Source of the DNA: Teichococcus aestuarii
Lineage (GTDB): Bacteria; Pseudomonadota; Alphaproteobacteria; Acetobacterales; Acetobacteraceae
DNA length: 64,000 nucleotides
NCBI RefSeq assembly: GCF_003116135.1
Contig: NZ_PDOA01000020.1
Location: 1-64,000 of the forward strand
Direction: 5' to 3'
The notes under the pieces: model-generated
What the model was told of the DNA's origin: nothing
Database searches by the model: none
Seen by the model: the letters and a program-made list of their open reading frames with translations, nothing else
Program-made: the position numbers and the translations under genes
In this document: positions 43,298-63,805 of the stretch, piece by piece
Layout of the letters: each line of letters starts with the position of its first letter
Numbering within the stretch: position 1 is the stretch's first letter

Positions 43298-43311
43298 TTG
43301 ATCTGGAGCAG
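43298..43311. promoter_or_regulatory. FixK/Fnr-like box, imperfect
   Basis: TTGATCTGGAGCAG has an exact left half-site (TTGAT) and a poor right half. It lies between the divergent CBS-BON and phoU genes, 68 and 119 bp from their starts. Confidence 0.4.
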
Positions 43312-43429
43312 CTTCCGCGGGCCTTCGGTCGCGCCGGCCGGCTGATGTCCGTCAGGGCAGGGGCCGTGCCTCCGGTGCCAGTCTTCCACACCGGCAGCGC
43401 ATCCCGGCAGGGTCAGGTGGAGCGAGGTC

Positions 43430-44116
43430 ATGCAGGGTCATTATATGGAAAGGGGCCAGGGACGCCTCGCCCAGGATCTCCAGCAGCTCCGGCTGATGAT
43501 CGAGGAGATGGGAAGCCGGGCGATCCGCCAGGTCAGCGATGCGAGCACCGCCCTTCTGCAGCATGACAACGGCCTCGCCGAGGAGGTGCTCCGGCGTGAC
43601 GTGCAGCTCGACGCCCTGGAGCGCGACGTGGATGCCGCATGCATCCGCCTGCTGGCGCTGCAGCAGCCTCTCGCCGCGGATCTCCGCCTCATCGTCGCGG
43701 TCCTCAAGACGAGCCATGATCTCGAGCGGATCGGCGACTATGCGGCGAACATCGCAAAGCGCAGCCGGGCCCTGCGCCGGATACCCGATTGGCTGCACCG
43801 GGCGACGCTGGGCGAGATGGCCTGGCTGCTGCAGCGGAACATCAAGGAGGCTGTCCGCTCCCTGGTCGAAGCCGACGCAGCGGGAGCCTGGGCGGTGTGC
43901 CAGTCCGATGACGATGTGGACGCGCTCTACGACCTGGCCTCCCAGGCCGTTCTCGAGCAGATGTCGGCGGGGCGGTGCGAGCCCGACACCGGCACGCACC
44001 TGATGTATGTCATCAAGGGCCTCGAGCGCATCGGCGATCATGCCGTGAACGTTGCCGAGATGGCCTACTATGCCGTTCGCGGCGCCAGCGCTCCGGTGCA
44101 GCGTCCCAGGAGGTGA
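43430..44116 (+). CDS. phoU: PhoU-domain protein
   Basis: 228 residues from ATG 43430. Two PhoU helical bundles: QLRLMIEEMGSRAIRQVSDA with RRDVQLDALERDVDAACIRLL, and the second with DDDVDALYDLASQAVLEQMS, LMYVIKGLERIGDHAVNVAE (the E-DHA metal-binding signature in ERIGDHAVN). PhoU normally restrains PstSCAB and PhoR, but no pst or pho genes are near; here it stands in an oxygen-limitation gene cluster, as in other alphaproteobacterial hypoxia regulons, and may help with phosphate or persister physiology. Confidence 0.85.
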   Translation: MQGHYMERGQGRLAQDLQQLRLMIEEMGSRAIRQVSDASTALLQHDNGLAEEVLRRDVQLDALERDVDAACIRLLALQQPLAADLRLIVAVLKTSHDLERIGDYAANIAKRSRALRRIPDWLHRATLGEMAWLLQRNIKEAVRSLVEADAAGAWAVCQSDDDVDALYDLASQAVLEQMSAGRCEPDTGTHLMYVIKGLERIGDHAVNVAEMAYYAVRGASAPVQRPRR

Positions 44117-44484
44117 GGTCCGGCGCCGGTGGCAGGGCCGCCGGTGCGCATGGCGCGGGCGAGTTCCGCGCGCAGGACCTCATGCAGCACCCCGCCGGCC
44201 GGCCCGCATGCGGCGAGCTCCCGGATGCCGGCGGCATCGCCCCCGACAGGCCGGTGGACTCCGCCAGGCAGGCCGCCATCAGGTGCGGCACCGGGACGTT
44301 GCTGCACAGCCCTGCGGGCTTGGCCGCGGCGGCAGCCGCGGTTGCCGGGTGGAGCGCCGCGCATTGCGCGCAATGCTCGTCAGCCTGACGCAGATCATCG
44401 CTCCGGAGCACGGAGACTGTAACCAGGGGCCGTGGCGGGCAGCGAGATTTGCTGCCGCTGCCATGGGACACAGGAGGAATCATC
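44117..44484. other. Gene-free stretch with FixK box upstream of hsp20
   Basis: About 370 bp. A minus-strand frame with several Cys pairs is open here (about 44110-44410) but overlaps phoU antisense and has no clear start, so it is not called. A FixK-like box is at 44385-44398 and the hsp20 ribosome site AGGAGGA at 44472-44478. Confidence 0.4.
44385..44398 (+). promoter_or_regulatory. FixK/Fnr-like box upstream of hsp20
   Basis: CTGACGCAGATCAT is CTGAC-N4-ATCAT, the reverse of ATGAT-N4-GTCAG. It ends 86 bp before the hsp20 start. Confidence 0.65.
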
Positions 44485-45030
44485 ATGTCCGACAACACGG
44501 TAAGCACCCCGAAGGCCGTGCAGCCGGTGCAGCCGCCTGCACCGGCGATGCCGGAATGCTTCTGGCAGCCGCTGGCGGGCCTGCGGGACGAGATGGACCG
44601 CGTCTTCGACAATCTCTGGCGCGGCTTCGGCGGCAGTCCGCTCCGCCGCGGCGAAATGATGCCACCCTGGCGCAACGACATGCCGTTCACCGCCGCCCTG
44701 CCCGCGGTGGACGTCACCGAGAGCGACAAGGATTTCCGCATCACCGCCGAGCTGCCGGGGCTGGGGCGGGATGACGTGGAGATCAGCCTGTCCGGCAACA
44801 TGCTCACCATCAAGGGCGAGAAGAAGGAACAGCGGGACGAGAAGACGGCGAACCACTACCTGTCCGAGCGCCGCTTCGGCAGCTTCCGCCGCTCCTTCGA
44901 GCTGCCCCAGAGCGTGCGGCGCGACGGCATCGAGGCCAGCTTCGACAAGGGCGTGCTGTCGGTCATCCTGCCCAAGACGGCGGAAGCGGCGCAGCAGACG
45001 CGCAGGATCGAGGTCAAATCGGCCTCCTGA
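44485..45030 (+). CDS. hsp20: Hsp20/alpha-crystallin small heat shock protein
   Basis: 181 residues from ATG 44485 (AGGAGGA seven bases upstream). The alpha-crystallin domain runs from PAVDVTESDKDFRITAELPG through LTIKGEKKEQRDEKTANHYL and RRFGSFRRSFELPQSV to GVLSVILPKTAEA, followed by a short C-terminal tail with IEVK, the I-x-I/V type motif that mediates oligomer contacts. It keeps unfolding proteins soluble without ATP. The FixK-like box upstream suggests induction at low oxygen. Confidence 0.9.
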   Translation: MSDNTVSTPKAVQPVQPPAPAMPECFWQPLAGLRDEMDRVFDNLWRGFGGSPLRRGEMMPPWRNDMPFTAALPAVDVTESDKDFRITAELPGLGRDDVEISLSGNMLTIKGEKKEQRDEKTANHYLSERRFGSFRRSFELPQSVRRDGIEASFDKGVLSVILPKTAEAAQQTRRIEVKSAS

Positions 45031-45047
45031 GGCTGTCGCCGGGGGGC

Positions 45048-45561: not shown

Positions 45562-45572
45562 GCCGCGCGCCA

Positions 45573-46415
45573 TCAGTGCGAGAGCAGCACCGGAATGGTC
45601 GAGCCATGCAGCAGGCTGCGGGTCACGCCGCCCAGCACCATCTCTCGCATGCGGCCATGGCCGTAGCCGCCCACCACCAGCAGCTCCGCGCCGAGATCGG
45701 CCGCAGCACTCAGCAGCACGTCCTCGACCTGCAGGTCGCCGCCGGCCATGGTGGTGGCAGCGGAGACGGTGGCCCCGTGCCGGGCCAGGTGGCGCGCGAT
45801 GTCCTCGGTCTGCACCTGGCAGCTTGCCTGCTCCTCCGCCCGGGCGAACACCGAGAGGACCTGCACCGCCTCCGCCGCCTGGATCAGCGGCAGGGCATCC
45901 CCGACCGCGCGCGCAGCCTCACGCCGCCCGTTCCAGCCCACCAGCACGCGCCGGGCCGTGAAATCGCGCGGCGGGCTCGGCGGCAGCAGCAGCACCGGCC
46001 GGCCCGCATCGAACATGACCTCCTCGGCCAGATCGGCCTCGATGCCGTTCCGGTCGGAGCGGCCGAGGATCGTGACATCGGCGTAGCGGGCGTGCTGCAC
46101 CAGAACCGAATCCACCATCCCCTCCACGAGGCGCCATTCCGCCGGGATGTCCTCGCGCCGGGTGGCTTTCTCGAACTGGGTGTGGATCTGCTCCGCCCGC
46201 TCCTTGGCGGCCTGCTCGGCTTCCTCCAGGACGAGCCGCCATGTGGCCGGGCTGACATAGCCATCAGCGGCAGCCATCATGGGCCAGTCGAGGCTGTAGA
46301 CGTGCAAGGCGGCCAGGTGGGCGCCGTGGTGCTTCGCCAGCGAAATGGCGGGGTCCAGGATGCGGGGGGCCACCTCCGGGCTCGGCAGATACACGAGAAT
46401 GTCTTTCAGCGACAT
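45573..46415 (-). CDS. Universal stress protein, tandem UspA domains
   Basis: 280 residues with two Usp folds. The first begins KDILVYLPSPEVAPRILDPA and has a loop lacking a complete nucleotide motif; the second, from RRVLVGWNGRREAARAVGDA, ends with VGGYGHGRMREMVLGGVTRSLLH, the ATP-binding G-x2-G-x9-G(S/T) pattern. Tandem Usp proteins are cytosolic stress effectors, frequently induced by oxygen limitation. Convergent with the ABC permease remnant. No FixK box was found immediately upstream (46416-46584 holds nothing recognisable). Confidence 0.9.
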   Translation of the reverse strand: MSLKDILVYLPSPEVAPRILDPAISLAKHHGAHLAALHVYSLDWPMMAAADGYVSPATWRLVLEEAEQAAKERAEQIHTQFEKATRREDIPAEWRLVEGMVDSVLVQHARYADVTILGRSDRNGIEADLAEEVMFDAGRPVLLLPPSPPRDFTARRVLVGWNGRREAARAVGDALPLIQAAEAVQVLSVFARAEEQASCQVQTEDIARHLARHGATVSAATTMAGGDLQVEDVLLSAAADLGAELLVVGGYGHGRMREMVLGGVTRSLLHGSTIPVLLSH

Positions 46416-46584
46416 CGCTCCGCTCCAGGTTCAGGCAGCCGGCATGCCGCGGGCGGCCTGTGTTGCGACGAGGGTGGTGCCGGCCGGAGGAGCCGCCAGC
46501 GGCCGGGAATCTGGAGGATCGTGGAAGGCCGGGGCTGGCTGGCCCGCTGGCGGAAAGCCGGGAGGGGCTCGCCGCGCATCCTTC

Positions 46585-47268
46585 TCAGGCCGGGACGCCG
46601 CTCAGGTCGGCGACCTCGGTCAGCCTCTCGCGCTCGAGGATGTGCAGGGTGTGGTTGTCCTCGATGGCGATCATGCCGGACTTGCGCAGCGCCGTGAGGA
46701 CGCGGCTGACCGTCTCCGCCGTGAGGCCGAGATAGTCGGCGATGTCGTAGCGCGACATCGGCAGGTCCACCGACGGGCGGCCGGGGCAGCTGCGGGCCGC
46801 CAGGTCGAGCAGGAAGTGCGCCACGCGCTCCGTGGCGCTCCGGCAGCCCAGCAGGATCGAGCGGTCCTGCGCCGCCGCCAGCTTCTCCAGCGTGAAGGCC
46901 TGCCAGGACTGCGCCGCCAGCGGTTCCTCGTCCATGTAGGCGTCGATGTCCTTGCGTGCGAAGGCGATCAGCACGACCTCGGTTATCGCCTCGGCCGAGA
47001 AGCGGTGCTCCTCCACGCCGTCGAGGCCGAAGACCTCGCCCGGCAGGGCGAACTGCGCGATGAAGCGCCGCGCATCCGGCAGCACGCGGCACACGCGCAC
47101 GGCGCCCGAGACCACCTTGTAGAACTGCCGGATCTTGGAGCCCTCGGCGTAGATCTCGGCGCCGCGCAGCAGCCGGCCTGGCCGGCCGGGGATGGCCCGG
47201 CCGCTGCGCTCCGGAGCGACCGTGAAAGGGAAAGGCAAGCGCATGCCGGTCAGCGCAACGCTCTGCAT
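46585..47268 (-). CDS. fixK: FixK-type Crp/Fnr regulator
   Basis: 227 residues from ATG 47268, with GGAAGGA upstream. N-terminal cNMP-fold sensor (GAEIYAEGSKIRQFYKVVSGAVRVCRVL in pieces), dimer helix, and C-terminal winged HTH with MSRYDIADYLGLTAETVSRVLTALRKSG, in which E-T-VSR contacts TTGAT half-sites. The four N-terminal Fe-S cysteines of Fnr are absent, so it should be a FixK protein under FixJ control and not itself an oxygen sensor. Location beside fixLJ and the FixK-like boxes around the island support this. Confidence 0.88.
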   Translation of the reverse strand: MQSVALTGMRLPFPFTVAPERSGRAIPGRPGRLLRGAEIYAEGSKIRQFYKVVSGAVRVCRVLPDARRFIAQFALPGEVFGLDGVEEHRFSAEAITEVVLIAFARKDIDAYMDEEPLAAQSWQAFTLEKLAAAQDRSILLGCRSATERVAHFLLDLAARSCPGRPSVDLPMSRYDIADYLGLTAETVSRVLTALRKSGMIAIEDNHTLHILERERLTEVADLSGVPA

Positions 47269-47411
47269 GGGTCGACTTCCTTCCGAAACGAGCGAGCGCA
47301 GTATCAGCGCCTTATCGTTTCGGTAACATTCCGGAAAATCACGTTCCGTAGAAGCACGTAGCGAAGTTCCGGCAAGTATTCACCTGCCGGCATTAAACTT
47401 TCTGGTTCATC

Positions 47412-47425
47412 CTGATCCGTGTCAG
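47412..47425 (+). promoter_or_regulatory. FixK/Fnr box upstream of the FixT-like gene
   Basis: CTGATCCGTGTCAG: CTGAT-N4-GTCAG. It lies 96 bp before the receiver-like gene at 47522, and 143 bp from the fixK start on the other side. Confidence 0.7.
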
Positions 47426-47521: not shown

Positions 47522-47983
47522 ATGCAGATGAGCCGGGAACCACCCCGCGAGCAGCCATGCCAGAGCGCAAGCGGGCAGGGCGACCCTCTGGCCGCCAAGC
47601 CCGGCCGCGTCCTCGTGCTCAGCGCCGATCCCGCGGCCCGGCGCGCCCTGATGCTGATGCTGGAATCGCACGGCTTCCTGGCCTACCCCTTCGCCAGCCT
47701 CGGCGCGCTGCTGCGGGTGGCCGACAGCCTGGGCGCGGAGAGTGCCGGATGGTGCTGCCTGCTGATGGCCGAGCGCCCACAGGCGGACCGCATCGGCCTG
47801 CAGGTGCTGCTGCCGCTGCGGCGCGCCGGAAGGGTCATCCCGGCTGTCATCCTGACATGGCCCGTGGCGGCGCAGGTGGAGCCGCCGGCTGGCCATTCCC
47901 TGGTCTGGTATGCCGACCCCCTGGTGCCAGAGGATGTGCTGCGCTCCGTGCGTGCCGCCCTCGGGGACGCCGAGCCGGGCTGA
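47522..47983 (+). CDS. Degenerate receiver-domain protein, FixT-like
   Basis: 153 residues. From GRVLVLSADPAARRALMLML through LVWYADPLVPEDVLRSVRAAL the chain has receiver-domain secondary structure, but the phosphoacceptor is missing: the third strand ends CLLMAERPQ where Asp is expected, the Thr/Ser strand reads LTWP, and the conserved Lys is replaced by Asp132 (ADPL). It carries Cys13, Cys78 and Cys79. In Sinorhizobium and Caulobacter, FixT is a FixK-induced receiver-like protein that inhibits FixL, and Caulobacter FixT binds an Fe-S cluster through cysteines. Position between fixK and fixJ, and the FixK box upstream, suggest an equivalent here. That identity is inference. Confidence 0.72.
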   Translation: MQMSREPPREQPCQSASGQGDPLAAKPGRVLVLSADPAARRALMLMLESHGFLAYPFASLGALLRVADSLGAESAGWCCLLMAERPQADRIGLQVLLPLRRAGRVIPAVILTWPVAAQVEPPAGHSLVWYADPLVPEDVLRSVRAALGDAEPG

Positions 47984-48001: not shown

Positions 48002-48682
48002 TCACCGCCCATACTGCGCCAGCACGGCCAGGCGCACCGCCTCGGCAAAGCTGCCGACGCCGAGCCGGGCCATCAGCTTTATCCGGTAGACCTCGACGGT
48101 TCTCGGGCTGATCCCCAGCTCGAAGCCGATGACTTTGCTGGGCTTGCCTTCCATGGCCAGCTCCAGCACCTCGCGCTCGCGCGGCGACAGCGTGGCCACC
48201 CGCTCGGCGGCCCGGGCTATGTCTGTCCTCTGGCTGGCGTTCCTGGGCGGGTCGTCCAGGGCGCCGGGTTCGCCGGGCGGCCCGGCCATGGCGGTGCGGA
48301 GGGTGGAGAGCAGAACCTCGTCATCGAAGGGCTTCTCGATGAAATCGGATGCGCCTGCCTTCATCGCCCGCACCGCCGTCGCGATGTCGCCATGGGCGGT
48401 CATGACGACCACCGGATGGCGGAAGCCCTGCCTCCTCAGGTCGTGCAGCAGGTCGAGCCCGTCCTTCCCGGGCATGCGGATGTCGGTCAGCACGCATCCC
48501 CCTGCCGACCATTCGAGGGATGGCAGGCACTCGAGGAACTCCCCGGCCGAGGCGTAGGTGCGGGCGGGTGTTCCGGCCGCTTCCAGCAGGGTTGCCACGG
48601 CCCAGGAGACATCCTCATCGTCGTCGATCACATGCACCATGGGCTGACCTGGGCGAGGGCCGGGTGCTGCCGCCGCTGTCAT
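48002..48682 (-). CDS. fixJ: FixJ, two-component response regulator
   Basis: 226 residues from ATG 48682, which overlaps the fixL stop as ATGA. Receiver domain: VHVIDDDEDVSWAVATLLE with the acidic pocket D20-D22, phosphoacceptor Asp67 (VLTDIRMPG), VVVMTAHGD and IEKPF. C-terminal LuxR-type HTH: LSPREREVLELAMEGKPSKVI, ELGISPRTVEVYRIKLMARL. FixJ is phosphorylated by FixL at low oxygen and activates fixK and other genes. Confidence 0.92.
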   Translation of the reverse strand: MTAAAAPGPRPGQPMVHVIDDDEDVSWAVATLLEAAGTPARTYASAGEFLECLPSLEWSAGGCVLTDIRMPGKDGLDLLHDLRRQGFRHPVVVMTAHGDIATAVRAMKAGASDFIEKPFDDEVLLSTLRTAMAGPPGEPGALDDPPRNASQRTDIARAAERVATLSPREREVLELAMEGKPSKVIGFELGISPRTVEVYRIKLMARLGVGSFAEAVRLAVLAQYGR

Positions 48683-51474
48683 GGCTTCTCCTCCTGCAGC
48701 AGCCTGGCGTCCGATGGCACCAGCAGCGGCAGGGTGAAGCGGAACACCGCGCCCCCGCCGGGGTTCGGCTCGCTCCACAGCCGGCCGTCATGCGCTTCCA
48801 CGATCGAGCGGCAGATGGACAGGCCAACCCCCATGCCGCCGCGCTTGGTGGTCACGAAAGGCTCGAACAGCCGGGCTTCCACGGCGGGGGAAAGGCCCGG
48901 CCCGGTGTCGCGCACCGCGACCTCCAGCATCCCGGCGCCGCGGCGCGTGGCGTTGATCGTCAGCCGGCACGGCTGGCCGCCTGCCTCGCTCATCGCTTCC
49001 ACCGCGTTGCGGATCAGGTTCAGCACCACCTGCTGGATCTGCACCCGGTCCACCAGAACCGGCGGAAGGTCCTGGTCGAGCTGGATGGAAATCTCCACGC
49101 CATGATGGGCGACGCCCAGCAGCGCCAGCTCCCTGGCCTCGCCGATGATATCGGGCAGCAGGACGGGTTCCCTCTCGACTTCGCCCTTCATCACGAAGTC
49201 GCGCAGCCTCTGCACGATCTGCCCGGCGCGGAGCGACTGGCTGGCGGCGCGCTGCAAGGCTTCCAGCACGCGCGGCGGCAGCACCGCATGGCCGGGCGAG
49301 GCTTCCAGCAGGCGCAGCGCGGCCCTGGTGGAACTGGCGATCGCGGTCAGCGGCTGGTTGAGCTCATGCGCCAGGGCGGAGGCCATCTCGCCCGCCACGC
49401 TGAGGCGGGAGACGTGCAGCAGCTCCGTCTGCAGGTCGTTCAGGCGCCGCTGCGATGCCTCGTCCTGGCTCAGGTCGCGGAGGAAGCCCGTGAACAGGTG
49501 GCCTTCCTTGGTCCTGACCTCGCCGACCGTCAATTCCATCGGGAACACCGAGCCATCGCGGCGCTGGCCATGCACCCGCCGGCCGATGCCGATGATGCGG
49601 CGCTCCCCCGTCCGCAGGTAATGCGACAAGTAGCCGGCGTGCCGCGACCGGTCGGGCTCCGGCATGAGAACCGACACCTCCTGGCCCAGGACCTCCACTG
49701 CCTGCCACCCGAACAGGTGCTCCGCCGTGGCGCTGAAGGACACGATGCGGCCGCTCTCGTCGATCACCACCATCGCATCCGGTACCGTGGCCAGGATGGA
49801 GCGGAGCTGGCCCTCGCTTTCCTCCAGCGCCCAGCGGATGCGGCTCAGCTCCGTGACGTTGGTCCAGGAGGCATAGACCAGGTTCTCGCCGTCGATCTCC
49901 ACCGGTTCGACGCGCACCAGCATGTCAAGCCTGTCGCCCGCGCGGTTGCGGAAGCGTGTCCTGATCTCGTCGCCCTTCGCCCCGAGCTGCGTGGCCGCGA
50001 TGGCCAGGCTGTGCCCGGCGGTGCCGGCCATCTCCAGATCCGCGATCCGCAACGTGGTGAATTCCGCCATGCTGTAGCCGAGTTCCAGGCAGGCACGCTG
50101 GTTGGCCCGCAGCACGCGCAATGAGCCGGGCTCCAGCAGGGCGATACTGACCGGCGCAGCCTCCAGCAGCGCGCGCGAACGCCGCTCCGCCTTGCGCAAC
50201 TCCTCATCCGCGCGCAGCCGCCGGCGCACAACCGCGACATGCTGCGCGATGGTGGCCAGGAACGCGACGTCCTCCTCCTGGAAGCGCTCCCGCGCGTGGC
50301 TGGCGAAGGCGAGCGCGCCCAGAACATCCTCCCCGGCCAGCAGCGGAAAGCAGACATAGGCCTGGATGCGCGGCGGAGCGGCGGCCTGTTCCTGCGGCGC
50401 CGCCGGATCCGGCTGCGCCGTCCAATGCACCGGCGCGCGGCTCCGCGCCACGGCATCGCAGATCGCCGGGCCGGAGGGCAGGAGGCTGAAGGCCGCGACC
50501 TGGCCGGGATCCGGGCCGATGCCCGCCGCCAGCCGCCACGCCTGGGCTTCCGGCAGGTAGCTGAACACCGCATCCACGCCCAGATCCGCCGAGAGCGTGG
50601 CGAAGAGCCCCCGCAGAACCTGCTCCGGATCGCCTGCGCCCAGCAGGTTCGCCGCGGCTTCGGACAACAGCGCCAGGCGGCGCGACCGCTCGCGCAGCGC
50701 GGTCTCGGCGCGCCGCTGCGGCGTGACGTCGACCACCGATTCCATCACCACGAGCGGCACCCCGTCGCTGCCGCGGCGCAGCGTCTTGCGCACGGCGATG
50801 CTGCGCGCTTCCCCGCTCCGCGTGTGCTGCACCAGCTCGCCCGACCACTCGCCCGATGCCAGCAGGGCCTGCTGGATCTGCGACACCGGAACGGGAAACA
50901 CCGTGCGCAGAAGCTCGTGCAGCGGGTAGCCGACCGCTTCCGACGCCCTCCAGCCGAAGATCCGCTCGCAGCCGGCCGACCAGTAGGTGACCACGCCCTC
51001 CGGCGTGCGCGACATGAAGGCGCCGAGATCCAGCGTCTCCAGTGTCAGGCGAAGGTTTCTTTCGCTCTCCCGCAGGCTCTGCCGCGCCTTTTCTTCCGCC
51101 GTGCAGTCCCGGACGATGAGGACCTGCATCCTCTGGCGCCGGTAGGCAACCGGCGAGCCCTGGAACTCGGCCGAGAAGGTCGACCCATCGGCCCGCAGCC
51201 CCCGGCCGCGGTGAGGCCTGCCATTGCCGCAGGAGGCGCTGCGCAGTGCATCCTCGCGGAATTCGGGCGCCACGAAGTCCAGGGTCTCGCGGCCGATCAC
51301 CTCCTGCAGCGCGGCATAGCCGAACATGCGCCAGAACGCCGCGTTCGCGTCCACGATGCGCCCGAGGTGGTGGATGGCAACGCCCTCGCGCGTCGCGTCG
51401 GAGAGGGTGCGGTAGCGCTCCTCGCTCTCCCCCAGGGCGATCTCCGCCTTACGCTGCAGCAGGTGATTCGGCAT
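48679..51474 (-). CDS. fixL: FixL, oxygen-sensing multi-PAS histidine kinase
   Basis: About 931 residues from ATG 51474; ATG 51549 in frame is possible but adds a Gly/Arg-rich lead. No membrane segments. Domains: PAS 15-130, PAS 135-255, GAF 265-425, PAS 430-550, then the heme PAS 560-680 (LFGWQAVEVLGQEVSVLMPEP, RSRHAGYL) with the axial His612 and the oxygen-gating Arg632 (IIGIGRRVHG), spaced 20 residues apart as in Bradyrhizobium FixL. The kinase follows: phosphoacceptor His703 (ALAHELNQPL), N-box near 823 (LIRNAVEAM), DTGPG at 866-870 and GMGVGL at 880-885. Oxygen binding to heme should turn the kinase off. The extra PAS and GAF domains are more than in classical FixL. Confidence 0.9.
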   Translation of the reverse strand: MPNHLLQRKAEIALGESEERYRTLSDATREGVAIHHLGRIVDANAAFWRMFGYAALQEVIGRETLDFVAPEFREDALRSASCGNGRPHRGRGLRADGSTFSAEFQGSPVAYRRQRMQVLIVRDCTAEEKARQSLRESERNLRLTLETLDLGAFMSRTPEGVVTYWSAGCERIFGWRASEAVGYPLHELLRTVFPVPVSQIQQALLASGEWSGELVQHTRSGEARSIAVRKTLRRGSDGVPLVVMESVVDVTPQRRAETALRERSRRLALLSEAAANLLGAGDPEQVLRGLFATLSADLGVDAVFSYLPEAQAWRLAAGIGPDPGQVAAFSLLPSGPAICDAVARSRAPVHWTAQPDPAAPQEQAAAPPRIQAYVCFPLLAGEDVLGALAFASHARERFQEEDVAFLATIAQHVAVVRRRLRADEELRKAERRSRALLEAAPVSIALLEPGSLRVLRANQRACLELGYSMAEFTTLRIADLEMAGTAGHSLAIAATQLGAKGDEIRTRFRNRAGDRLDMLVRVEPVEIDGENLVYASWTNVTELSRIRWALEESEGQLRSILATVPDAMVVIDESGRIVSFSATAEHLFGWQAVEVLGQEVSVLMPEPDRSRHAGYLSHYLRTGERRIIGIGRRVHGQRRDGSVFPMELTVGEVRTKEGHLFTGFLRDLSQDEASQRRLNDLQTELLHVSRLSVAGEMASALAHELNQPLTAIASSTRAALRLLEASPGHAVLPPRVLEALQRAASQSLRAGQIVQRLRDFVMKGEVEREPVLLPDIIGEARELALLGVAHHGVEISIQLDQDLPPVLVDRVQIQQVVLNLIRNAVEAMSEAGGQPCRLTINATRRGAGMLEVAVRDTGPGLSPAVEARLFEPFVTTKRGGMGVGLSICRSIVEAHDGRLWSEPNPGGGAVFRFTLPLLVPSDARLLQEEKP

Positions 51475-51812: not shown

Positions 51813-51826
51813 GTGATCCAGATCAG
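51813..51826 (+). promoter_or_regulatory. FixK/Fnr box upstream of the phasin-like gene
   Basis: GTGATCCAGATCAG: GTGAT-N4-ATCAG, 72 bp before ATG 51899. One of the best matches to TTGAT-N4-ATCAA in the window. Confidence 0.72.
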
Positions 51827-51898: not shown

Positions 51899-52282
51899 AT
51901 GCCCCCCGATGATCAGGTTACCTCCGCGGGCCCCGATGCCAAGGCTCCTCCCTTCGGGTGGAGCGATGGTGCGGCCTGGCCGGATGCCATGCTGAACGTC
52001 CCATGGCAGACGTCCTACCGGACGATGCTGGAAGCGCAGAAGATCATGGGCGAAGCGTTCATTCGCGAGCTCGACGTGCTGGGCGCGGCGCAGACCGGCT
52101 ACGGCAAGGGGCTGGAGGATATGCTGTCCTGCCGGCGTCCCCAGGATCTGCCGGCGGCCTATGCCTCGTTGATGACGGTGCTGCTCGAAGCCATGGCGCG
52201 CCATGCCGAGGTCAGCGCCGCCTATGCCAGCCGCCTCCGGCAGTGCTGCGGCACTCTGGCCGAGACAAGGGCGCGCAACTAG
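51899..52282 (+). CDS. Phasin-like small helical protein
   Basis: 127 residues from ATG 51899 (AGGAG ten bases upstream). After a Pro/Gly-rich lead, the chain is helical: YRTMLEAQKIMGEAFIRELDV, YGKGLEDMLSCRR, SLMTVLLEAMARHAEVSAAYASRLRQC in pieces. Length and helical amphipathicity resemble phasins, which coat polyhydroxyalkanoate granules, but the sequence match is weak, and no PHA synthase is in the window. It is preceded by a strong FixK box, so it should be induced at low oxygen. Confidence 0.65.
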   Translation: MPPDDQVTSAGPDAKAPPFGWSDGAAWPDAMLNVPWQTSYRTMLEAQKIMGEAFIRELDVLGAAQTGYGKGLEDMLSCRRPQDLPAAYASLMTVLLEAMARHAEVSAAYASRLRQCCGTLAETRARN

Positions 52283-52828
52283 GCCCTGTCCTGGCCGCCC
52301 TCGGCGCCGCGTTCTTCGCGTGGAATTCTGGCATCTGCGCCGCCTTGCGAGCGGTCCGGTTGTGAGTTCTGGCTGAACCGCAACCAAGAATGCCTCGCTG
52401 CTGCCCTTGCCGCACCAGCCAGCCAACCGAACCGGGCATGAGGGATGGCGAACCGGCGCTGCCCCCCTGCGCGGCCGTCTCTCCGGCAGGCCGTGATGCG
52501 GGGGGCAGTGCCATGCCCGTGCTCCGCCAGGCCGACCCTCGCCTCCGTGGTGCCGGGCGCCTGTTCCGGTACCGATCCAGACTGAGGGGTCATCCTGATC
52601 TGTCGCAGTGTTCGAGCGGCGCGCACGGTGCAGCGTGCCGTCGCTGTTCCGGAAACGACGATGAGCGCTTCATCCAGGCCTGCCTCTCCGCCTTCCCCGG
52701 CCGGTGCGGCGTGGGCGACGGCGTGCGGCGCGACACGGACGGCCACGGCCGGATCATCGGCCGGGCGGGCCGGGAACACCTGTTTCCAGGAAAGCGGCTT
52801 TTCAGCCAGCACAACAGGAGATGATCTC
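52283..52828. other. Gene-free stretch with weak FixK-like half-box
   Basis: About 545 bp without a convincing gene: the overlapping open frames are not family-like. An imperfect FixK-like site lies at 52595-52608 and is the only notable signal. Regulatory sequences of the DUF485/actP operon are expected in the right half. Confidence 0.45.
52595..52608 (+). promoter_or_regulatory. FixK/Fnr-like box, imperfect, upstream of DUF485/actP
   Basis: CTGATCTGTCGCAG: an exact CTGAT half-site, with the right half only partly matched (CGCAG against GTCAG). It lies 220 bp before the DUF485 start, further than the other boxes. Confidence 0.35.
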
Positions 52829-57489: not shown

Positions 57490-57503
57490 CTGATCGAGGT
57501 CAG
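57490..57503 (+). promoter_or_regulatory. FixK/Fnr box upstream of PEP synthase
   Basis: CTGATCGAGGTCAG: CTGAT-N4-GTCAG, ending 55 bp before ATG 57559. Confidence 0.75.
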
Positions 57504-57558: not shown

Positions 57559-59997
57559 ATGGCCGGAAGCGGGATGATCCTTTGGTTCGACCAGGTGGGG
57601 CTGGGTGATACCGCCAGGGTCGGCGGCAAGAACGCCTCGCTCGGTGAGCTGTACGGGCGGCTGACGCCGGCCGGGCTGCGCGTGCCGAACGGCTTTTGCG
57701 TCACCGCCGATGCCTACCGCGCCGCCCTGGATGCGGCCTCTGCCTGGCCCGCGCTGCACCGCGCGCTGGACGGGCTGGATGTCACGGATATCCCCGCCCT
57801 GGCCCGCCGCGCCGCCGAGGCGCGCCGCATCGTCTACGAGGCCACCGGCCACGCGCCGCTGCGGGCCGCGATCATCGGCGCCTATCGCCGCCTGCGGCAG
57901 GAATCCGGTGCCGAGCCGGCCCTGGCCGTGCGCAGCTCCGCCACGGCGGAGGATCTGCCGGATGCCAGCTTCGCCGGCCAGCACGAGAGCTTCCTGAACA
58001 TCCGCGGAGAGGAAGCGCTGGTGGAGGCCTGCCGCCGCTGCTGCGCCTCGCTCTTCACCGACCGCGCGGTGGTCTACCGCGCCAACAACGGCTTCGACCA
58101 TTTCAAGGTCGCGCTCTCCGTCGGCGTGATGCGGATGGTCCGCGCGGATCTCGCCGCCAGTGGCGTGATCTTCACGCTCGACACGGAATCCGGCTTCCGC
58201 GACGTGGTCTATGTCACCGGCTCCTACGGGCTTGGCGAGAATGTCGTGCAGGGCAAGGTGGACCCGGACGAGTTCCACGTGCACAAGCCGACCTTCCGCG
58301 CCGGCTACAGGTCCGTGCTGCGCCGCGCGCTCGGGCGCAAGCAGACCCGGCTGGTCTATGCCGGGCCCGGCGCGGCGGAGCCGACGATCGACCTGCCGAC
58401 GCCGGAGGCAGAACGGGACCGCTTCTGCATCAGCGACGAGGAGGTGCTCTCCCTCGCCGAGGCGGCCCTGATCATCGAGGCGCATTACTCGGCCGCCGCC
58501 GGCCATCCCGTGCCGATGGACATCGAATGGGCCAAGGACGGCCTGGACGGCCAGCTCTACATCCTGCAGGCGCGGCCGGAGACGGTGGCCTCGCGCCGCG
58601 GGGCGCAGGCCGTGGAGAGCTTCAGCCTCACCGGCACGGCCCCGGTCCTGGTGACCGGCAAGGCGGTGGGCGAGCGCATCGCCACGGGCCAGGTGCGCCG
58701 GGTGGGCGGCGCGGCGGATCTCGCCGCCTTCCGGCCGGGCGAGGTGCTGGTGGCCGAGGCGACCAGCCCGGACTGGGAGCCGGTGATGAAGACGGCGGCC
58801 GCCATCGTCACGGAGCGCGGCGGCCGCACCTGCCATGCGGCGATCGTGGCGCGCGAGCTGGGCGTGCCGGCCGTGGTCGGCGCGGCGGGAGCGCTCGGCG
58901 CCCTGGCCGATGGCGCCGAGGTGACGGTGTGCTGCGCCAGGGGCGAGGCCGGCGAGGTGTTGCAGGGTGCCGTGCCCTTCGTGGTGAGCCGCATCGCCGC
59001 CGATGTCGCCGTCCTGCCGCGCACGAAGATCATGCTGAACCTGGCCAACCCGGCGCTGGCCTTCCGCTCGGCCATGCTGCCCAGCGCCGGCGTCGGGCTC
59101 GCGCGCATGGAGTTCATCGTCAGCGAGCAGATCGGCGTGCACCCGATGGCCTGCGTGCAGCCGGACAGGGTCGCCTCCCTGGCCGAGCGGCAGGCCATCG
59201 CGCAGCTGGCGCGGCACCACGCCTCGGCCGAGGCGTTCTTCGTGCAGACCCTGGCCGAGGGCGTCGGCACCATCGCCGCCGCCTTCCACCCCCGGCCGGT
59301 GATCCTGCGGCTGTCTGACTTCAAGACCAACGAATACGGCCGGCTCCTCGGCGGCAGCGGCTTCGAGCCGGCGGAGGAGAACCCGATGATGGGCTTCCGC
59401 GGAGCCGCCCGCTACGCCCACCCGGCCTATGCGCCGGGCTTCGCCCTGGAGTGCCGCGCCATCCGCCAGGTGCGGGAGCGGATGGGGCTGGCCAATCTGC
59501 GGGTCATGGTGCCCTTCTGCCGCCGGCTGGAGGAGGCGGAGCGCGTGCTGGCCGAGATGGCGCGGCACGGGCTGAAGCGCGGCGAGGCGGGGCTGGAAGT
59601 GTACATGATGTGCGAGATCCCGAACAACGTGATCCTGATCGACCGCTTCGCGGCGTTGTTCGACGGCTTCTCGATCGGTTCCAACGACCTGACGCAGCTG
59701 ACGCTCGGCGTGGACCGCGATTCGGCCACCGTGGCCTTCGACTTCGACGAGCGCGACCCGGGGGTGCTGGAGATGCTGCGCCAGGCCGTGAGCGGTGCGC
59801 GGCGCAACCACCGCCATGTCGGCATCTGCGGCGAGGCCCCGGCCAACTACCCGGAGATCGCCGCCTATCTCGTCGCGCTGGGCATCGAGGCGATCAGCGT
59901 CACGCCCGCCAGCCTGCTGCGGACCATCGCCGTGGTGCGGGAGGCCGAGCAGCGCCAGGAGGCATCTGGCGCGCAGGAGCCCGTGCTGGCAGGCTGA
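57559..59997 (+). CDS. ppsA: Phosphoenolpyruvate synthase
   Basis: 812 residues from ATG 57559 (GGGAGGG upstream). ATP-grasp/PPDK N-terminal domain (GGKNASLGELYGRL, VRSSATAEDLPDASFAGQHE), central swivelling domain with the phospho-His426 in GGRTCHAAIVARELGVPAVVG (in pieces), and the C-terminal PEP/pyruvate TIM barrel with FSIGSNDLTQLTLGVDRD and active-site Cys757 (GICGEAPA). Converts pyruvate and ATP to PEP, AMP and phosphate, supporting gluconeogenesis from acetate or lactate. A clear FixK box upstream places it in the low-oxygen regulon; it could feed PEP during fermentative survival. Confidence 0.92.
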   Translation: MAGSGMILWFDQVGLGDTARVGGKNASLGELYGRLTPAGLRVPNGFCVTADAYRAALDAASAWPALHRALDGLDVTDIPALARRAAEARRIVYEATGHAPLRAAIIGAYRRLRQESGAEPALAVRSSATAEDLPDASFAGQHESFLNIRGEEALVEACRRCCASLFTDRAVVYRANNGFDHFKVALSVGVMRMVRADLAASGVIFTLDTESGFRDVVYVTGSYGLGENVVQGKVDPDEFHVHKPTFRAGYRSVLRRALGRKQTRLVYAGPGAAEPTIDLPTPEAERDRFCISDEEVLSLAEAALIIEAHYSAAAGHPVPMDIEWAKDGLDGQLYILQARPETVASRRGAQAVESFSLTGTAPVLVTGKAVGERIATGQVRRVGGAADLAAFRPGEVLVAEATSPDWEPVMKTAAAIVTERGGRTCHAAIVARELGVPAVVGAAGALGALADGAEVTVCCARGEAGEVLQGAVPFVVSRIAADVAVLPRTKIMLNLANPALAFRSAMLPSAGVGLARMEFIVSEQIGVHPMACVQPDRVASLAERQAIAQLARHHASAEAFFVQTLAEGVGTIAAAFHPRPVILRLSDFKTNEYGRLLGGSGFEPAEENPMMGFRGAARYAHPAYAPGFALECRAIRQVRERMGLANLRVMVPFCRRLEEAERVLAEMARHGLKRGEAGLEVYMMCEIPNNVILIDRFAALFDGFSIGSNDLTQLTLGVDRDSATVAFDFDERDPGVLEMLRQAVSGARRNHRHVGICGEAPANYPEIAAYLVALGIEAISVTPASLLRTIAVVREAEQRQEASGAQEPVLAG

Positions 59998-60020: not shown

Positions 60021-60034
60021 CTGATCCGCGTCAG
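60021..60034 (+). promoter_or_regulatory. FixK/Fnr box upstream of the P1B-ATPase
   Basis: CTGATCCGCGTCAG: CTGAT-N4-GTCAG, ending 46 bp before ATG 60081. Confidence 0.75.
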
Positions 60035-60080: not shown

Positions 60081-62420
60081 ATGGGACGGCAGGGACGGCA
60101 GCATCTCCGGCTGGGCTGGGCATTGCTGGGCCTGGCTGCCGGAACGGTGCTCTGGATGCGCGGCGCCGGTGTGGCCGCTGGCTGGGTCTGGAGCGCCGCG
60201 GCGCTGCCGGTGGCCCTGCATGTGGCGGCCGGCCTCTGGCGCAGCCTGCGCGGCGGCCGGCCGGGCGTGGACGTGATCGCCCTGGCCGCCGTGCTGGCCG
60301 CGGTGGCAACGGGGGAGGCGGCCACGGCGGCGGTGATCGCCGTGATGGTGGCGGGTGGCGAGGCGCTGGAGGCCTGGGCCGGCGCACGCGCGGGCTCGGC
60401 GCTGGCGGACCTGCTGGCCCGCACGCCACGCCGGGCGCAGCGGCTGGAAGGCGAGCGGCTGGAGGACATCCCCGTCGCCGCCATCCGGCCGGGCGACCTG
60501 CTGCTGGTGCGCCCCGGCGACACCGTGCCGGCCGACGGCCTGCTGGCGGATGGCGCCGCGACGCTGGACCTGCGCGCCCTGACCGGCGAATCCCTGCCCG
60601 TCGCGCTGGCGCGGGGCGCGGCGGTGCAGAGCGGGGCGGTCAATGCCGGCCCGGCCTTCCGCCTGCGCGCCAGCCACGACGCCGCCGGCAGCACCTATGC
60701 CGCCATCATCCGCCTGACCGAGGCCGCGACGGCCAGCCGGGCGCCGCTGACGCGGCTTGCGGACCGCTGGGCCGTGGCCTTCGTCCTGTTGACGGCGCTG
60801 GTGGCCGGCGGCGCCTGGCTGGCCACCGGCGACCCGCTGCGCGCCCTGGCGGTGCTGGTGGTGGCCACGCCCTGCCCGCTGATCCTGGCCGCGCCGGTGG
60901 CCCTGATGGCCGGCATCGGCCGCGCGGCGCGGCGCGGCATCATCGTCAAGGATGCCGGCGCGCTGGAGCAGCTGGCCGGGGTCCGCACGGTGGTGTTCGA
61001 CAAGACCGGCACGCTGACGCCGGGCCGCCCGGCCCTGGCGACCGTGGATGCCGAGCCGGCGCTGGGCCGCGCCGGCGCGCTGCGGCTGGCGGCCTCTCTG
61101 GCCCAGGGGTCGGCCCACCCGGTTTCCACCGCCCTGCGGGACGCGGCGCTGGAGCAGGGCATGGCGCTGGCGCCGCCGGAGGCGGTGCGGGAGACGCCGG
61201 GCGGCGGCCTGCGCGGGGTGGTGGAGGGCAGGACGGTGCTGCTCGGCGGCGAGGCCTATCTGCGCGATGCCGGCCTGGCGCCGGCGCCGGGCTTCGGGTC
61301 GGATGCCGCCCTGGCGGGGCTGGGCGGCCTGGTCGCCTGGCTCGGCGTGGATGGCCAGGTGGCGGCCGCCTTCGTGCTGAGCGACACGCCGCGGCCCGAG
61401 GCGGCGCGTGCCGTGCGGCAGCTCCGCGCCCTGGGGCTGCGCCGGCTGGTGCTGTTGTCCGGCGACCGGCAGGCGGCGGCGCTGGCGGTCGGGCGGGCGC
61501 TGCGGCTGGACGCGGTGCTGGCCGAGCAGTCGCCCGCCAACAAGATCGAGGCCTTGCGGGCGGAGGCCGCCGCGGCACCGACCGCCATGGTGGGCGACGG
61601 CGTGAACGATGCCCCCGCCCTCGCCGCGGCCCAGGTCGGCATCGCCATGGGTGCGGCCGGCACCGCCGCGGCGGCCGAGGCGGCGGGCATCGTGCTGCTG
61701 GTGGACCGCGTGGACCGTGTCGCGGAGGCCATCGCCATCGCGCGGCGGTCGCGCGGCATCGCGCTGCGGGCCATCGGCCTGGGCATGGGCGCCTCGGTCG
61801 CGGCGATGCTGCCGGCCGCTGCGGGGCTGCTGCCGCCGCTGCAGGGCGCGCTGCTGCAGGAAGGGGTCGACGTGCTGGCCATTCTCTTCGCCCTGACGGC
61901 GCTGCGGCCGGGGCGGGCGGAGCGCCGGCCGGCGGCGCTGCCCGCCCTGGCCGGGCTGGCGGAGCGCATGGCAGAACACGCCGCCTTGCGTTCCCTGGCC
62001 GAGATGATCCGCGCCACGGCGGAGCGGATGCGCGCGGAGCAGGCGGAGCCCGCCACCCTCGCCGCGCTGCTCCGCCAGTTGCAGGAGCAGTTGCTGCCGC
62101 ACCAGCAGACCGAGGAGCGCATGCTCTACCCGGCCGCGGCGCAGCGCCTGGGCAGCGAGGCGATGACGGCGCTGGTCCGGATGCATGCCGAGATCGAGAT
62201 CCTGACCGGCCGCATCGCCACGGCGCTGCGGCTGGCGGAGGAGGGGGTTCCCTGGCCGGCGCTGATCCCCTCCCTGCGCCGTACGCTCTTCGCGCTGGAG
62301 GCGCTGCTGCAGCTGCACCTGGTGGCCGAGGAGGATGTGCTTGCCGGGCTGGAGGATGACGGGGAGGCGTCGGCGCGCCCGGGCCCTGCCGCCCTGCCCG
62401 TGCCGGCCGTGGCGCGCTAG
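60081..62420 (+). CDS. P1B-type (P1B-5-like) metal ATPase with C-terminal hemerythrin domain
   Basis: 779 residues from ATG 60081 (AAGGA upstream). P-type motifs: TGE 168-170, the membrane metal motif TPCP 263-266, the phosphorylation site Asp307 in DKTGT, HP 346-347 and GDGVND 505-510. About seven hydrophobic membrane segments are visible. After residue ~625 comes a hemerythrin-like four-helix domain with His633 (EHAAL), His674/Glu678 (PHQQTEE), His702 (MHAEI) and His746/Glu750 (LHLVAEED), the usual HxxxE-type di-iron ligands. This architecture, without an N-terminal metal-binding domain, is that of P1B-5 ATPases such as Nia of Sinorhizobium, reported to move nickel and iron; the hemerythrin domain could sense oxygen or iron. 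Preceded by a FixK box. Confidence 0.9.
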   Translation: MGRQGRQHLRLGWALLGLAAGTVLWMRGAGVAAGWVWSAAALPVALHVAAGLWRSLRGGRPGVDVIALAAVLAAVATGEAATAAVIAVMVAGGEALEAWAGARAGSALADLLARTPRRAQRLEGERLEDIPVAAIRPGDLLLVRPGDTVPADGLLADGAATLDLRALTGESLPVALARGAAVQSGAVNAGPAFRLRASHDAAGSTYAAIIRLTEAATASRAPLTRLADRWAVAFVLLTALVAGGAWLATGDPLRALAVLVVATPCPLILAAPVALMAGIGRAARRGIIVKDAGALEQLAGVRTVVFDKTGTLTPGRPALATVDAEPALGRAGALRLAASLAQGSAHPVSTALRDAALEQGMALAPPEAVRETPGGGLRGVVEGRTVLLGGEAYLRDAGLAPAPGFGSDAALAGLGGLVAWLGVDGQVAAAFVLSDTPRPEAARAVRQLRALGLRRLVLLSGDRQAAALAVGRALRLDAVLAEQSPANKIEALRAEAAAAPTAMVGDGVNDAPALAAAQVGIAMGAAGTAAAAEAAGIVLLVDRVDRVAEAIAIARRSRGIALRAIGLGMGASVAAMLPAAAGLLPPLQGALLQEGVDVLAILFALTALRPGRAERRPAALPALAGLAERMAEHAALRSLAEMIRATAERMRAEQAEPATLAALLRQLQEQLLPHQQTEERMLYPAAAQRLGSEAMTALVRMHAEIEILTGRIATALRLAEEGVPWPALIPSLRRTLFALEALLQLHLVAEEDVLAGLEDDGEASARPGPAALPVPAVAR

Positions 62421-62514
62421 GGCAGACCGCGGCTGGCCTGGCGGGCCTGACAGGGTGGCGATGCCCTGGCCACGCAGCCCGGCGGCCAGGCCCCAGCGCA
62501 GGGGCAGAGGCGGG

Positions 62515-63498
62515 TCATGGCGTGAGCACCAGCGCGCCCTCGACCTCGCCCCGGCGCAGCCGCTCCAGCGCGGCTCCGGCCGCCTCGAGCGGCAGGGTCT
62601 CCACGGCCGTCCGGACCGGGATGCGGGGGGCGAGCGCCAGGAACGCCTCGCCGTCGCGCCGCGTCAGGTTGGCGACCGATCGCAGGCAGCGCTCCTGCCA
62701 CAGGATGCCGTAGGGGAAGGCCGGGATGTCGCTCATGTGGATGCCGGCGCAGACCACCGTGCCCCCGCGGTCCACCGCGCGCAGCGCCGCCGGAACCAGG
62801 GCGCCCACCGGCGCGAACAGGATCGCCGCATCCAGCGGCTGCGGCGCAGGCGCGTCGGACGGCCCGGCCCAGGCCGCGCCGAGTTGCCGGGCGAATTGCG
62901 CGCTGGCCGCGTCGCCGGGGCGCACGAAGGCGAAGACCTCCCGCCCCTCATGCCGCGCCACCTGCGCCACGATATGCGCCGCCGCACCGAAGCCGTAGAT
63001 GCCGAGGCGGGCGGCATTCCCCGCCATCCGCAGGGCGCGGTAGCCGATCAGCCCGGCGCAGAGCAGCGGCGCGGCCTCCGCGTCGCCATACCCCTCCGGC
63101 AGGGCAAGGCAGAAGGCCTCCTCCGCCAGGCAAAGCTCGGCATATCCGCCATCCCGCTGGTAGCCGGTGAAGCGCGCCTCCGGGCACAGATTCTCCCGCC
63201 CGTCGCGGCAGAAGCGGCAGGTGCCGCAGGCGAAGCCCAGCCAGGGAACGCCGACGCGCTGGCCCATGGCGAAGCGCGTGGCGCCCGCACCCCGCGCCAC
63301 GACGCGGCCGACGATCTCATGCCCCGGCACCACGCCGGGCCTGGGGTTGGCCAGCTCGCCATCCACCAGGTGCAAGTCGGTCCGGCAGACCGCGCAGGCG
63401 GCCACGCGCAGCACCACCTGCCCTGGGCCGGGCTGCGGGTCGGGGAGGGCGGCACAGCGCAGCGGCGCCCCTGGCCGTACGAACTGCATCGCGCGCAT
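62515..63498 (-). CDS. Zinc-dependent alcohol dehydrogenase
   Basis: 327 residues. MDR-superfamily: zinc site VCRTDLHLVDGEL (Cys and His around residues 38-44), GHEIVGRVVARG (catalytic GHE), the structural-zinc Cys loop CGTCRFCRDGRENLC, and the NAD fold GIYGFGAAAHIVAQVARHEG. The family contains AdhA-type enzymes of Zymomonas and relatives that reduce aldehydes in fermentation. Encoded 6 bp after a small gene behind a FixK box, suggesting ethanol or aldehyde disposal when oxygen is low. Confidence 0.9.
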   Translation of the reverse strand: MRAMQFVRPGAPLRCAALPDPQPGPGQVVLRVAACAVCRTDLHLVDGELANPRPGVVPGHEIVGRVVARGAGATRFAMGQRVGVPWLGFACGTCRFCRDGRENLCPEARFTGYQRDGGYAELCLAEEAFCLALPEGYGDAEAAPLLCAGLIGYRALRMAGNAARLGIYGFGAAAHIVAQVARHEGREVFAFVRPGDAASAQFARQLGAAWAGPSDAPAPQPLDAAILFAPVGALVPAALRAVDRGGTVVCAGIHMSDIPAFPYGILWQERCLRSVANLTRRDGEAFLALAPRIPVRTAVETLPLEAAGAALERLRRGEVEGALVLTP

Positions 63499-63504
63499 GG
63501 CCGG

Positions 63505-63735
63505 TCATTCCGTCCGGCGCCTGGCGGCACGCCAGCGGGACGTCTCCGGCGCGGCCGGGCGGCGGTCGCCCGGGTGATCCCCCCGGTGATCCCCCCGGTG
63601 ATCCCCTCGGTCGCTTCCTGGGCGGGGCACCGCGGGCAGGCGGCCGAGCAGCCGCTCCACGAGGCCGCGGCGCAACGCGTGCAGCCAGTCCTGCTCCCGT
63701 GTCGCCATCCGCCGCGCCCATGCTGCTCGCTGCAT
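63505..63735 (-). CDS. Small basic protein with GDHR repeats, co-transcribed with ADH
   Basis: 76 residues from ATG 63735, with GAGGGCAAGG upstream. It begins MQRAAWARRMATREQDWLHA; the centre has GDHRGDHRGDHPGD from a 12-bp repeat, and the tail is Arg/Ala-rich. I recognise no family. A FixK box lies 56 bp upstream, and the ADH gene follows after 6 bp, so if translated it is a low-oxygen-induced leader of the ADH operon. It may also be a non-coding leader with a chance frame. Confidence 0.5.
   Translation of the reverse strand: MQRAAWARRMATREQDWLHALRRGLVERLLGRLPAVPRPGSDRGDHRGDHRGDHPGDRRPAAPETSRWRAARRRTE
63573..63608 (-). repeat. 12-bp tandem repeat, three units
   Basis: GGTGATCCCCCC twice and GGTGATCCCCTC once, in frame inside the small gene ahead of ADH, giving the GDHR(P) repeats on the minus strand. 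Each change in copy number keeps the frame. Confidence 0.9.
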
Positions 63736-63791
63736 CGCCTTGCCCTCATCTGCTTGCCGGACCGGTCAAGCAGATCCCCGGGCGCGCCGGA

Positions 63792-63805
63792 ATGATCTGG
63801 ATCAG
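63792..63805 (-). promoter_or_regulatory. FixK/Fnr box upstream of the ADH operon
   Basis: ATGATCTGGATCAG: ATGAT-N4-ATCAG, 56 bp ahead of the small gene start (63735). A near match to TTGAT-N4-ATCAA. Confidence 0.75.

Follow-up and report, generated by a model that had tools for sequence, protein, structure and literature searches.

A putative FixL-FixJ-FixK regulon in Teichococcus aestuarii whose boxes carry mostly C at the outer position

The first 64,000 bases (here called the window) of the 69,227-base contig NZ_PDOA01000020.1 (C20) of Teichococcus aestuarii, the genome of which comprises 5.2 Mb in 106 contigs, contain the genes fixL, fixJ and fixK in the middle of a set of palindromic 14-bp boxes that precede gene starts. 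Sequence comparison makes it likely, with a probability of about 0.75, that this cluster represents a local regulon of the FixL-FixJ-FixK cascade, the box of which has been changed most likely via residue 184 of FixK. That FixK is the reader of the boxes seems highly likely, and that residue 184 is the cause of the change from T to C is reasonably probable. An earlier note, made from the letters of the window, had already proposed a FixLJ-FixK low-oxygen regulon from six such sites. The core of that proposal stands, given the haem-PAS domain of FixL, the family matches of FixJ and FixK, and the boxes found before orthologues in relatives, while the phasin, acetate and ethanol parts turned out to be weaker.

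The six sites first noted (44385, 47412, 51813, 57490, 60021 and 63792) are all present, but the set was incomplete, as a seventh full box inside the window, at 43342, had been overlooked. Two further full boxes lie beyond the window end, at C20:64295 and C20:66156, which gives a total of nine full boxes within 24 kb. The operons behind them, formerly described as unlinked, are indeed separate transcription units, although all of them belong to this one cluster. In the six boxes, the distance between the box centre and the start of the downstream gene is 53.5 to 103.5 bases; for box 63792, a provisional start had been used at first, and 63.5 bases result when the gene is taken to begin with the ATG at 63735. 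The small open reading frame (ORF) behind this box was left uncalled by the gene caller. The half-box previously recorded at 43298 is present as a weaker site, but it is distinct from the adjoining full box at 43342. When a weight matrix with softer pseudocounts is applied, the six sites used for training score at least 17.8, and the scores of the other sites of the window are given in Table 1.

The abundance of these sites exceeds what is expected by chance. The pattern TGATN5TCA matches the window 12 times (at 10 distinct places, since palindromes count on both strands) versus a shuffle mean of 3.2, and none of 100 shuffles reaches the count of the window. The pattern xTGATN4RTCAG is found genome-wide in 97 rows, corresponding to 91 distinct places, 10 of which fall in the 23.7-kb cluster versus 0.37 expected (Poisson P about 1e-11); one of them, the genic place 54094, is probably a chance match, and so is the genic place 44000, which matches the core with a T at the end. 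A weight matrix built from the six sites, with the weakest training score as the cut, yields eight matches on the contig, all of them intergenic (the six sites plus 64295 and 66156), and misses 43342; block shuffles of the contig give a mean of 0.04 and a maximum of 1. In a sample of 400 kb of the same genome (20 evenly chosen pieces of 20 kb each, taken from other contigs), this cut gives two matches, both genic. With softer pseudocounts and a cut of 12, the cluster has eight matches in 2,124 upstream bases, two in other intergenic DNA and three in genes, versus none in 28,712 upstream bases, one in other intergenic DNA and 45 in genes for the 400-kb sample, where lower cuts raise the upstream matches to two (cut 10) and seven (cut 8). 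Since the genic density is about equal in cluster and sample, the excess lies upstream of genes. The earlier note had stated that the regulon model would fail if the same density appeared at random intragenic positions; the model passes this check, the excess being upstream of genes. In the stretches of this genome taken around pattern matches, NTGATN4RTCAN occurs in 88 genic and 19 intergenic places, the latter distributed among the fixK cluster (three), loci with TTGAT-type boxes (six) and other places (10, of which three precede a called start by at most 300 bp). Controls with reversed patterns were given no weight, as the TAG within the reversed core probably makes it rare in coding DNA.

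The nine full boxes comprise 18 half-sites, with C as the outer base in 15 of them, A in two, G in one and T in none; six of the boxes carry C at both outer positions. The consensus of FixK/FNR, TTGAY-N4-RTCAA, is not matched at the outer T, and the inner TGAY-N4-RTCA is matched as the pattern used to find the boxes demands; the box is mostly CTGAY-N4-RTCAG in place of TTGAY-N4-RTCAA. The merely approximate match to the consensus had been noticed before and taken as a weakness of the model; the observation was correct, but it is better explained by a changed box accompanied by a changed recognition residue. In the alignment with FixK2 of Bradyrhizobium diazoefficiens, Ala184 of FixK (in LTAETVSR) is opposite the Leu of LTLETVSR. 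Residue L195 of FixK2 makes a hydrophobic contact with a thymine (PMC9104804). We infer that the aligned Leu is L195, and that the contacted thymine is the first (outer) T of the box.

This relationship between residue and base was followed through 81 fixK loci, in which the residue at the place of Ala184 was read from a profile alignment, and boxes were counted when they were intergenic and at most 250 bp from a called start, with the outer base left free in the search. L078 (no FixK match), loci of about 3.5 kb (part of L110-L138; L214-L231 and L255-L308) and named loci superseded by longer stretches had been dropped before the count. Loci with Ala give C38, A4, G3 and T5 (10 loci, nine with sites), those with Ser C18, A2 and T2 (four loci, three with sites), and those with Pro C4, G1 and T1 (six loci, three with sites). 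Conversely, the outer base is mostly T at loci with Ile (T84, C7, A6, G3; 27 loci, 18 with sites), Val (T81, C7, A5, G5; 24 loci, 22 with sites), Phe (T5, C2, A1; two loci, both with sites) and Leu (T2; two loci, one with sites). Thr, which is outside both classes in the test, shows T4, A2 and C2 (six loci, four with sites). When pooled, the small residues Ala/Ser/Pro reach C60, T8, A6 and G4 in 78 half-sites (15 loci with sites), and the bulky residues Val/Ile/Leu/Phe T172, C16, A12 and G8 in 208 half-sites (43 loci with sites). With each locus that has sites taken as one unit, C is more frequent than T in 13 of the 15 with a small residue and in 0 of the 43 with a bulky one (Fisher 3e-11, a value that ignores kinship). 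Four decoy patterns gave 0, 9, 3 and 10 sites (22 in total), compared to 147 real ones.

Kinship limits what can be concluded from these numbers. A tree built from the FixK proteins of the 81 loci requires five changes of the Ala/Ser/Pro label, at least four of them forced by well-supported branches. The C box appears in three lineages, which are the Roseomonas-Belnapia clade, metagenome-assembled genomes of the Caulobacteraceae type, and Acidocella (one site), while a fourth small-residue lineage, the Neoroseomonas type, whose helix combines Pro with Cys, is either uninformative or negative. A C-type box is found before fixK itself in the Caulobacteraceae-type Ser/Pro loci L054, L056 and L063 and in the Acidocella Pro locus L065. 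Additional Ser/Pro lineages were sought with the Ser-type FixK of Caulobacteraceae, but the class search (15 of 385 genomes at E 1e-32) yielded none that was new, and the family search found none in seven genomes at E 1e-42. A search with the FixK family model matched 79 of 385 genomes, and the 30 loci obtained consisted of 29 with Ile, Val or Leu and one without the motif found. When the family search was widened (17 of 397 genomes matched at E 1e-44), one more genome of the A clade was gained, G768, in which Thr is found together with a T/C box.

Several observations weigh against the proposed role of residue 184. The four Pro loci of the Neoroseomonas type, which have Cys for the usual Ser, have no C box (three are siteless, and one shows G and T), Belnapia, with Ala, has three T in eight half-sites, and the Ala locus L041 has no site. 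Near-copies such as L044-L046, L073/L074 and L146/L148 were counted separately. When only independent pairs defined by well-supported branches are compared, there are three of them, with an average of 2.6 in the same direction, none in the opposite one, and a median sign-test p of 0.25; with only three independent contrasts, a kinship correction is unable to reach significance, and the link between residue and base is consistent with this test but not proven by it. C-type palindromes also occur outside the cluster, in the form of two CTGACN4GTCAG places before transposases, which look unrelated to the regulon. Moreover, the box of the cco promoter is TTGAY in all nine genus members with a cco match (9 of 17 genomes), three of which (G153, G158 and G161) have an Ala-FixK, indicating that either this FixK reads T too or another regulator does so. 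Finally, we take position 180 of the CRP/FNR family to be the place of Ala184. Residue 180 correlates with the box base across the family, but the contrast described by Rodionov et al. (2005) is that of Arg with G versus others with T, and Ala, Ser and Pro went with T and not with C, as in HcpR1 (Ser/Pro) and NssR (Ala180) (PMC1274295). The effect of the residue, if real, would therefore be specific to the FixK background.

The canonical box also exists in this genome. TTGAT-N4-RTCAA is found at six places genome-wide, five of them intergenic (L080-L084), and because the nine cluster boxes lack the outer T, a strict scan with this pattern finds none of the regulon. One of these boxes precedes a gene for cytochrome oxidase subunit I (Pfam match), which is read as ccoN, another lies between a narG-like gene and the gene for an FtrB-like regulator, and another is 291 bases before a gene for a universal stress protein (Usp; Pfam match); the remaining ones precede CBS and MocR-like (MocR/DUF1127) genes, names that come from reading the sequence. 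A half-changed box, ATGATCCAGATCAA, is located before ompW, and the second copy of cco in G158 (64% identical) has no TTGAY box. The genome encodes, in addition, an FnrL-like protein (L212:1270-1947) with V-E-x-x-N-R in the helix and a match to the FnrL model at E 1e-16. Given this protein, and TTGAY boxes before cco in genus members without a close FixK as well, it need not hold that the Ala-FixK is the sole FNR-type protein and has to read the cco box. In the boldest reading, the FnrL-like protein would read the TTGAT set while the Ala-FixK would read the CTGAY set. It is possible, albeit rather doubtful, that a single replacement, by Ala, Ser or Pro, of the FixK residue that reads the outer base has more than once rewritten TTGAY to CTGAY throughout a local regulon, creating a second low-oxygen code in cells that retain the ancestral TTGAT one (for cco and nar).

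Other explanations of the C boxes have to be compared with these data. Ala184 might merely relax the outer position, C being a by-product of the high GC content. In favor of this, Ala loci are mostly GC-rich, Belnapia has a mixture of T and C, and G and A occur too. Relaxation in a GC-rich genome, however, predicts about as much G as C, and the counts are 60 for C and 4 for G; in the cluster itself, T is absent from the 18 half-sites and G occurs once. Among the loci with a GC value at hand, those with at least 0.65 keep the contrast, with C in 51 of 68 half-sites for the small residues and T in 68 of 82 for the bulky ones. As GC-rich loci show the same contrast and C is far above G, GC content does not explain the pattern, and we regard this alternative as unlikely.

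It could also be argued that nothing has changed, and that this is an ordinary FNR/FixK regulon in which departures at the outer base are the usual scatter of FNR sites. A one-sided outer C or A does appear among the sites of FnrL from Rhodobacter sphaeroides and FixK2 from B. diazoefficiens (PMC2908626, PMC9104804), and the outer T is poorly conserved in Fnr3 sites of Herbaspirillum seropedicae (PMC5934665). Nevertheless, scatter of this kind seems very improbable for a cluster with C on both sides in most of its boxes and no outer T, when C reaches only 16 of 208 half-sites at the Val/Ile/Leu/Phe loci. Instead of the neighboring FixK, the reader of the boxes might be a different CRP/FNR protein, since other members of the CRP family, including the FnrL-like one, are encoded in the genome. 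This seems quite improbable as well: the cluster around fixK holds nearly all of the C boxes that precede genes, in other lineages C-type boxes are found before fixK itself, the outer base tracks the residue of the local FixK, and the FnrL-like protein has Val, which predicts T, TTGAT-N4-RTCAA being found at only six places, cco and nar among them. Reading of the boxes by the local FixK, with its altered residue 184, consequently remains the preferred explanation.

Conservation in relatives was examined on the gene maps of ten loci, in which some pattern matches fall in genes. Intergenic boxes precede hsp20 in G157, G158 and SXEYE001, and a box beside fixK, or between fixK and the gene for P0004 (a FixT-like protein), exists in G158, G163 and P. 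oryzae, with a same-place box listed for G158, G163 and L038. PEP (phosphoenolpyruvate) synthase is preceded by a box in G157 (Roseomonas marmotae), the CBS2 and HAD/ATPase genes in Belnapia, and the alcohol dehydrogenase (ADH) gene in G161; no intergenic box was found in Pararoseomonas baculiformis, one of the ten mapped loci. In alignments, the boxes of hsp20 and PEP synthase are kept amid much diverged DNA.

The genes fixL, fixJ and fixK had been placed correctly in the middle of the set, and their identity is backed by domain and family matches. The haem-PAS domain of FixL matches the haem domains of FixL structures (E about 1e-43), the histidine of RSRH being aligned, and is followed by the HisKA/HATPase kinase part. 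This histidine is presumably the haem ligand. FixL does not reach the NCBIfam equivalog cut-off (498 bits vs 850 for the rhizobial model), nor do FixJ (218 bits vs 255) and the match of FixK to the curated Caulobacter FixK (169 bits vs 300), although the best matches of the last two among solved structures are FixJ and FixK2, respectively. FixK is a CRP/FNR protein encoded beside fixLJ, with the ETVSR helix and no N-terminal cysteine cluster; the lack of any cysteine before residue 60 suggests that oxygen is presumably sensed via FixL. The conserved block between the box and the start of fixK is a likely candidate for the FixJ site or promoter. A Pfam search with P0004 itself gave no match, but a profile of this protein matches receiver-like neighbors of fixJ in relatives, two of five of which match Response_reg; P0004 is thus probably a degenerate receiver; relatives carry a receiver-like gene next to fixJ at this position.

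According to the proposed model, the haem-PAS kinase FixL would phosphorylate FixJ at low oxygen, and phosphorylated FixJ would switch on fixK from the block at 47329-47364. FixK dimers would then bind the 14-bp boxes, some 50-100 bases before the starts, activating the genes for Hsp20, PEP synthase, metal ATPase, PhoU, CBS proteins and ADH, while P0004, whose gene also follows a box, may exert a FixT-like feedback on FixL. The regulon and its gene set are of a known kind, that of the FixK2 and lxa low-oxygen programs, and the recognition variant appears to be the new part. In B. diazoefficiens, the same FixLJ-FixK2 cascade governs an overlapping gene set (hspC2, Usp, ppsA and CBS genes); FixK2 activates hspC2 and ppsA in vitro, the box-bearing Usp and CBS genes depend on it, and the boxes of these genes are tabulated at 47 to 143 bases before the starts (PMC9104804). 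FixK2 differs in that its thymine-reading residue is Leu and its boxes are of the form TTGA/C-N6-T/GCAA (PMC9104804), instead of Ala and mostly CTGAY-N4-RTCAG.

A second system with comparable gene content is the lxa locus of Burkholderia cenocepacia. This organism is a Betaproteobacterium. The locus is likewise one cluster, of 50 genes, with Usp, heat-shock and BON-domain genes, and has been linked to anoxic persistence; fixLJ and FixK homologues are numbered outside it, and in B. dolosa FixK is controlled by FixLJ (PMC6127331). Regarding recognition, Fnr1 and Fnr3 of H. seropedicae are two FNR-type proteins distinguished partly by the outermost base; however, they are iron-sulfur FNRs, the outer base is merely poorly conserved, and the accessible text names no residue of the recognition helix (PMC5934665). 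A common box is generally assumed for FNR, FixK and DNR: it has been argued that the three recognize similar sequences (PMC2908626), and another study found the residues that contact the DNA to be free of group-specific changes (PMC4999443). Exact C-type consensus strings were not found in the open-license literature searched, a coverage that leaves out the Caulobacter FixK motif and the logos of PMC4999443. If residue 184 sets the outer base, the sequence of a FixK protein might in many cases suffice to predict its boxes, and the joint change of a regulator and all its sites would become testable. Strict scanning for TTGAT-N4-RTCAA overlooks this regulon.

Table 1. Boxes, conserved block and genes of the fixK cluster (box positions are the starts of the 14-mers on the plus strand)
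Feature	Position	Strand	Remarks
CBS + BON domain protein	42526..43230	-	Domain matches
Weak box TTGATCTGGAGCAG	43298..43311	+	Before CBS/BON gene; soft score 13.4
FixK box CTGATGTCCGTCAG	43342..43355	+	Between CBS/BON gene (-) and phoU (+); soft score 14.6
PhoU-domain protein	43430..44116	+	Domain match
FixK box	44385..44398	-	Before hsp20
Hsp20 small heat-shock protein	44485..45030	+	Domain match
Universal stress protein	45573..46415	-	Domain match
fixK (P0001), CRP/FNR family	46585..47268	-	Recognition helix LTAETVSR includes Ala184
Conserved block between box and fixK start	47329..47364	-	Largely kept in G000, G158, G163 and G157
FixK box CTGATCCGTGTCAG	47412..47425	+	Between fixK and P0004
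P0004, FixT-like	47522..47983	+	Probably a degenerate receiver
fixJ response regulator	48002..48682	-	Receiver + LuxR-type helix-turn-helix
fixL	48679..51474	-	PAS-PAS-GAF-PAS-haemPAS-histidine kinase; 931 amino acids
FixK box GTGATCCAGATCAG	51813..51826	+	Before phasin-like gene
Phasin-like small protein (weak)	51899..52282	+	Phasin_2 E 0.029, below cut-off
Weak half-box	52595..52608	+	Before DUF485-actP; soft score 10.7
DUF485 protein and ActP acetate symporter	52829..54840	+	Family matches
FixK box CTGATCGAGGTCAG	57490..57503	+	Before PEP synthase
Phosphoenolpyruvate synthase	57559..59997	+	Family match
FixK box CTGATCCGCGTCAG	60021..60034	+	Before P1B-ATPase
P1B-type heavy-metal ATPase, C-terminal haemerythrin domain	60081..62420	+	Haemerythrin Pfam E 6e-12
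Zinc alcohol dehydrogenase (adh_fam_2)	62515..63498	-	Family match
FixK box ATGATCTGGATCAG	63792..63805	+	Before small ORF and ADH (-), beside CBS gene end

Regarding the genes behind the boxes (Table 1), the protein called phasin-like in the earlier note has only a sub-threshold Pfam match. The gene for the acetate symporter ActP is present, but its link to the regulon is one weak half-box, and the formation of ethanol is likewise deduced from the family name of an ADH whose gene does exist. The fusion of the metal ATPase with a haemerythrin domain could couple metal export to oxygen or iron. Beyond the window, the genes associated with boxes are those for CBS proteins and a HAD/ATPase gene. 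The latter (C20:64389-66098, equivalent to L079:1390-3099) is a single gene with HAD-phosphatase and AAA/HerA-like ATPase parts that adjoins a FixK box and has relatives in Belnapia and P. rhizosphaerae.

FixK relatives are found in Pseudoroseomonas wenyumeiae and P. rhizosphaerae (75% and 81% identity), and a 73%-identical FixK is encoded by plasmid p1318-4 of Roseomonas marmotae. Matches to FixK at E 1e-60 or better are found in 6 of 17 genomes of the genus, the genome under study included, a patchy distribution that fits gain and loss or horizontal movement. In R. marmotae, part of the cluster (fixK, usp, hsp20 and ppsA) resides on a 320-kb plasmid (L310, NZ_CP061095.1) with transposase genes close by, and fixLJ are not annotated within the 24.7 kb shown. 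The two CTGACN4GTCAG palindromes located on other contigs of the T. aestuarii genome (L331:1501 and L332:343) are directly 5' of DUF772 transposase genes of one family. At the start of the contig, there are two copies of a CRP-like gene (3-473 and 784-1438), of which the first or second is truncated where the contig ends and the other was split into two ORFs by the gene caller.

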